DNA from: Coriobacteriaceae bacterium
GTDB lineage: Bacteria > Actinomycetota > Coriobacteriia > Coriobacteriales > Atopobiaceae
Assembly: GCA_003862195.1 (NCBI GenBank)
Contig: QOUO01000015.1
Location: 1-39,682, forward strand
Reading direction: 5' to 3'
Length of the DNA: 39,682 nucleotides
The notes under the pieces are model-generated. The model was given only the letters and a program-made list of their open reading frames with translations. It ran no database searches and had not been told where the DNA came from. A program made the translations under genes and the position numbers. Of this stretch, positions 785 to 863 are shown one piece after another; position 1 is the stretch's first letter; the number at the start of each line of letters is the position of its first letter.

Positions 785-863
785 GGCACCTGTCCCTTTA
801 TGAGTCGGGCTCGGCTTGTGACAGGTGCCATGGAGCCCGCATCCGTAGGAGCGGGCTATTTTT
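785..863 (+). promoter_or_regulatory. thrS leader: alternative hairpins ending in a terminator
   Basis: Three pairings can be drawn. Stem A is a perfect 10-bp helix, GGCACCTGTC (785-794) with GACAGGTGCC (820-829). A terminator follows: AGCCCGC (834-840) with GCGGGCT (851-857), then ATTTTT. The loop of stem A contains CGGGCTC (806-812), perfectly complementary to GAGCCCG (833-839), the upstream terminator arm. The terminator arm can therefore pair either with the stem-A loop, giving a pseudoknot that would prevent termination, or with its own partner. This is the layout of a transcription attenuator. I see no T-box core sequence, so the signal sensed is unknown. Confidence 0.6.

Follow-up and report, generated by a model that had tools for sequence, protein, structure and literature searches.

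In the window (the whole 39,682-nt stretch of Coriobacteriaceae contig QOUO01000015.1 that was analysed), the threonyl-tRNA synthetase gene thrS (915–2,681, + strand; 588-aa ORF from ATG 915) is preceded by a hairpin and an intrinsic terminator, which raises the question of what signal this leader might read. A sequence-only reading had suggested that threonine, tRNA or the synthetase might be sensed directly, through an H-type pseudoknot between hairpin loop and terminator. Comparison of leaders fetched with thrS orthologues points instead to a ribosome-mediated transcription attenuator of thrS that responds to Thr-tRNA charging and belongs to a new leader family, an interpretation that we consider probable. 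The gene name is that given in the sequence-only reading, with which the sequence is consistent.

Layout of the thrS leader

All leader features are on the + strand (Thr codons are numbered relative to the leader stop). A probable extended -10 promoter element, TGTGGTACAAC (700–710), includes TGTGGTA (700–706), a motif also found upstream in relatives (49/91 leaders against 0.5 expected from shuffles, mostly 67–91 nt ahead of the sensor codon). The Shine-Dalgarno-like sequence AGGAAAGG (727–734) is separated by 12 nt, a long spacing, from an ATG at 747 that opens a 12-codon leader ORF, MHARFARRTRTM (747–785), closed by UAG (783–785); related leaders have GAAAGG and related motifs before the leader start. 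This ORF, absent from the sequence-only reading, contains two ACT threonine codons near its end, Thr(-4) (771–773) and Thr(-2) (777–779; the sensor codon). The G of the UAG is the first base of hairpin P1 (segments 1:2; 785–829), the arms of which, GGCACCTGTC (785–794) and GACAGGTGCC (820–829), form the perfect 10-bp stem previously described and enclose an inner hairpin (800–807/812–819).

The terminator (segments 3:4; 834–863), also as previously described, is evident in both sequence and fold. It pairs 834–840 with 851–857 and 842–844 with 848–850 (AGCCCGC-ATCCGTAGGA-GCGGGCT, 834–857), followed by ATTTTT ending at 863 (U-tract 859–863), and thus lies between the leader ORF and the structural gene, as in a leader-peptide attenuator. 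Folding also predicts an alternative, candidate antiterminator hairpin (segments 2:3; 806–839), in which 806–812 (CGGGCTC) pairs with 833–839 (GAGCCCG), the exact 7-bp reverse-complementary match already noticed in the sequence-only reading, and 813–815 with 827–829. Folding of the leader region in the window beats that of 199/200 dinucleotide shuffles (z -3.1). No Rfam family, T-box included, was matched in the window at gathering threshold and none was plausible at E values up to 10, bearing out the earlier observation that there is no T-box core.

Conserved reading frame and threonine codons

The regions upstream of thrS orthologues share a block consisting of Thr-x-Thr-x-stop followed directly by GGCGYCTGTC...GACAGGCGCC. 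Codon tables were compiled from 91 leaders, i.e. 94 non-identical leaders minus three that were doubtful or divergent: L130 (weak match, thrS not located) and L131 and L132 (weak matches, divergent thrS). The latter two, from genomes G023 and G048, have weak matches to the unit (LTLTQTI-stop) and thrS only ~45% identical to that of the window. Position Thr(-2) is threonine in all 91 leaders and the codon is ACT in 88, while ACT accounts for just 2/106 threonine codons in eight window genes. Thr(-4) is threonine in 83/91 (ACG 47, ACT 24, ACC 9, ACA 3), and in 55 diverged representatives 33% of the codons at the final seven positions specify threonine. Many leaders have a start codon, often placed 12 codons upstream of Thr(-2) and with GAAAGG ahead of it.

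Among similar leaders, 528/1357 single-base codon changes are synonymous in frame, versus 112/1452 and 136/1292 for the two alternative frames, counts that come from leader pairs that are not independent. The commonest ending is T-Q-T-I-stop (Q in 68/91, I in 72/91). Residues beside the threonines vary (R/T, Q/E/V/P, I/M/L/R), so the peptide itself is not constant. The leaders thus have what is expected of a leader-peptide attenuator in this respect, a translatable ORF with cognate codons under coding constraint. Frameshifting past the stop into thrS is not supported: over all leaders the downstream frames are somewhat more open than shuffled ones, and the excess is weaker, and slight, among representatives (18 and 22 of 42, versus 16 and 14 expected).

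P1 and the codon-to-stem spacing

In all 91 retained leaders P1 starts exactly 8 nt after the first base of Thr(-2) (5-nt gap), a figure to be read knowing that the covariance model was built on the 8-nt spacing, so that matches with other spacings are under-reported. The distance is unchanged when the stop codon moves one codon early (L018) or is lost (L024, L050). In L024, L025 and L050, GAG stands in place of the leader UAG and the ORF enters P1, with the Thr-to-stem distance kept; the leader stop is also absent from L130.

Covariation support for P1 is strong: 98.4% of cells are paired, six of the ten pairs are changed on both sides, and none of 500 shuffles scored as high; 38 cells are changed on both sides versus 7 in shuffles, and a slid alignment pairs only 32–48%. 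The sequence of P1 is also strongly conserved, including in leaders that have no terminator, beyond what a plain 1:2 stem needs. Covariation had been proposed earlier as a check on the leader helices; it supports P1 and, more weakly, the inner hairpin, and does not extend to 806–812/833–839. The apical loops of P1 vary among leaders, and a mutual-information scan for other long-range helices returned only P1 and loop-region pairs and no convincing new helix.

Distribution of the leader

A covariance model of the Thr-codon/P1 block matched 100/397 genomes of the order, from 26 genera in two families, with one match per genome, at the thrS leader. The second-best match in the window's own genome is at chance level (E=1.07). 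Genomes drawn from the class and phylum yielded essentially nothing beyond the two families, with one borderline match (G801). Close thrS sequences are found in Olsenella, Atopobium, Lancefieldella, Thermophilibacter, Collinsella and others, and because of these named records the families (f1 and f10) are taken as probably Atopobiaceae and Coriobacteriaceae. Also, thrS genes ~65–67% identical to that of the window are present in Gemmiger-like and other Clostridia (L192-L210, L212), a similarity that may reflect gene transfer. Rfam T-boxes were absent from 20 related loci searched, including thrS leaders of Gemmiger-like and other Clostridia (L192, L196, L197, L201, L203, L212).

A terminator follows P1 in 63/91 leaders, compared with 0–3 in shuffles. 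In about one third of leaders no intrinsic terminator was detected, and in twenty of these P1 ends 39–96 nt before thrS. Terminator-less leaders with P1 and threonine codons include L002-L004, L007-L009, L021, L085, L086, L095, L098, L110, L120, L123, L125 and L128, with a weak terminator candidate in L002 and L003. In leaders of genus g4 (e.g. L034), CATATCGCTCGA forms a direct repeat, with one copy within the leader ORF and the other at the 5′ arm of the terminator. L037, L042 and L045 have no separate leader ORF upstream of thrS; here, an upstream zinc-ribbon gene ends in a CRTR-like tail and stop shortly before a hairpin and a terminator (TGT CGA ACT CGC ATC CTC TAG in L037). Judged from these sequences, the C-terminus of the zinc-ribbon protein may have taken over the leader role.

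A predicted switch at the sensor codon

The pseudoknot would require conservation of the loop/terminator pairing among relatives, the point on which the sequence-only reading had staked it, and this was not found. Among 52 distinct leaders with terminators, pairing between P1 loop and terminator reached p<0.05 in two (mean z -0.1 versus shuffled loops), and loops from the same species paired no better than loops swapped between species. A match similarly good to that of the window is present in L031. In the unconstrained fold of the window, 806–812 belongs to the stem and tip of the inner hairpin (800–807/812–819), which a pseudoknot must therefore first melt. What stands of the proposal is an attenuator in the thrS leader with a third pairing able to compete with the terminator, without a conserved H-type pseudoknot.

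That third pairing behaves as a switch when folding is simulated up to the 5′ arm of the terminator with the 5′ end of the leader occluded. P1 holds until the first free base is 787, and the probability of the 2:3 hairpin, 0 with P1 intact, rises to 0.50 when the first free base is 788, 0.91 at 789 and 0.98 at 790 (0.91–0.99 from 789 onwards). If the leading edge of the ribosome is taken to lie 15–16 nt from the first P-site base, a ribosome with 777–779 in the A site should reach ~788–789, and a ribosome at 771–773 should leave P1 whole. Once the 3′ arm of the terminator is out (RNA end at 856), the terminator wins in every P1-blocked state of the window, and equilibrium folding with P1 blocked retains it (mean 0.85–0.94). 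The switch must therefore be kinetic, occurring during transcription, and only stepwise folding is informative about it.

The 7-bp match recurs in ~1% of shuffled window loops and ~6% of shuffled loops equal the native loop in switching, making the 2:3 hairpin alone modest evidence. Among relatives, a conserved loop-based antiterminator was not found: the terminator arm is sequestered to a mean of 0.01 when P1 is whole and ~0.32 once four of its bases are occluded, but native cores do no better in this than swapped or shuffled cores. In terminator-less leaders, blocking P1 produced no consistent change in sequestration of the Shine-Dalgarno sequence. Since no conserved antiterminator was found and about a third of leaders are terminator-less, it is the sensor (Thr codon plus P1) that is conserved, and not the readout.

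Proposed mechanism and alternative readings

In the proposed attenuator, RNA would start near 716 and a ribosome would translate MHARFARRTRTM. With ample Thr-tRNA, both ACU codons would be passed and the ribosome would terminate and depart, allowing P1 (1:2) to form, leaving segment 3 free and letting the terminator (3:4) end transcription. With scarce Thr-tRNA, the ribosome would stall with ACU 777–779 in the A site, its edge at ~788–789 hiding the first 4–5 nt of P1. If 806–815 then paired with 827–839 (2:3) before polymerase reached the 3′ arm of the terminator, this hairpin would act as antiterminator in vivo, and termination would be delayed or missed and thrS made. On this sequence evidence, stalling at the Thr codons of the leader ORF is the most likely signal, more so than recognition of threonine, tRNA or synthetase by the RNA itself, which found no support.

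The variable readout also suits a different, possible though rather less expected, reading, that the Thr-codon/P1 unit is a portable stall sensor. With Thr(-2) in the A site, P1 would meet the mRNA entry site and, like hairpins that stimulate frameshifting, would enforce a pause that varied devices could read (terminator, Rho, translation start, RNA decay), differing between genera and including leaders without a terminator or visible alternative pairing. The fixed 5-nt gap between Thr(-2) and the stem, the conservation of P1 sequence even without a terminator and the failure to find a conserved alternative pairing among relatives all fit; on the other hand, the alternative hairpin predicted in the window is strong and switches at the expected position, and most leaders have a terminator. 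The ending RTQTI-stop might alternatively mark a TnaC-like arrest peptide, acting independently of codon hunger. This would account for the prevalence of T-Q-T-I-stop, yet Thr(-2) alone is invariant, Q and I are widely replaced, the stop is movable or absent and leaders such as TTTTTTI exist, making arrest improbable.

Direct sensing by the pseudoknot appears more doubtful still. The exact match in the window and the comparable one in L031 speak for it, against pairing that is no better in native than in cross-species combinations, an inner hairpin that occupies 806–812, and conservation upstream of P1 that translation of the leader explains. The remaining reading, and in our view the least credible, is a weak, unregulated terminator with constitutive partial readthrough next to a fortuitous hairpin: P1 and the terminator are compatible and coexist in the fold of the lone RNA, but chance would hardly keep threonine codons, frame and spacing across 26 genera. 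The attenuator remains the preferred reading.

Comparison with known systems

In E. coli, ThrRS binds an operator of thrS in translational feedback, through a mimic of the tRNA-Thr anticodon arm beside the ribosome binding site. This is likewise control in a thrS leader, but the leaders described here lack a conserved P1 apical loop, P1 of the window ends ~85 nt before the thrS start, so that its apical loop is far from that start, and a terminator is present. The closest layouts are those of the pheST attenuator of gamma-proteobacteria and of trpS and leuS in Streptomyces, for which leader-peptide attenuation has been predicted (PMC1262725), all with a short ORF containing cognate codons, a stem and a terminator before a synthetase gene. 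The present leaders differ from these in serving thrS, in having one invariant Thr codon at a fixed distance from the stem rather than a codon run in segment 1, in the conserved stem sequence and non-conserved antiterminator, and in the existence of terminator-less versions.

The thrS T-box riboswitch of Firmicutes (PMC2494555) controls the same gene and would be expected to respond to the same signal (uncharged tRNA-Thr), but here there is no Rfam T-box match in the window or the 20 related loci searched, and sensing would be via a translated ORF. Swaps between T-boxes and leader peptides have been described (Naville and Gautheret, PMC2965389). In Actinobacteria, Seliverstov et al. (PMC1262725) described cys leader peptides without obvious terminators and the LEU element, with conserved structure; ahead of threonine operons their survey detected no RNA structure that was conserved. 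Those leaders resemble the present ones in combining a leader peptide with conserved structure (LEU) or with lack of a terminator (cys), but serve other amino acids and differ in structure. A literature search with few subscription papers in its scope returned no description of a leader-peptide attenuator of thrS.

As far as the literature searched shows, a leader-peptide attenuator is thus new for thrS, and the fixed codon-to-hairpin spacing is unusual. Firmicutes are known to control this gene through T-boxes and E. coli through an operator bound by protein; a leader peptide would be a third solution, spanning Atopobiaceae and Coriobacteriaceae, which have gut bacteria among their members. 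Together with the terminator-less variants, the fixed spacing would provide a natural series on how a stalled ribosome must alter RNA to change transcription.
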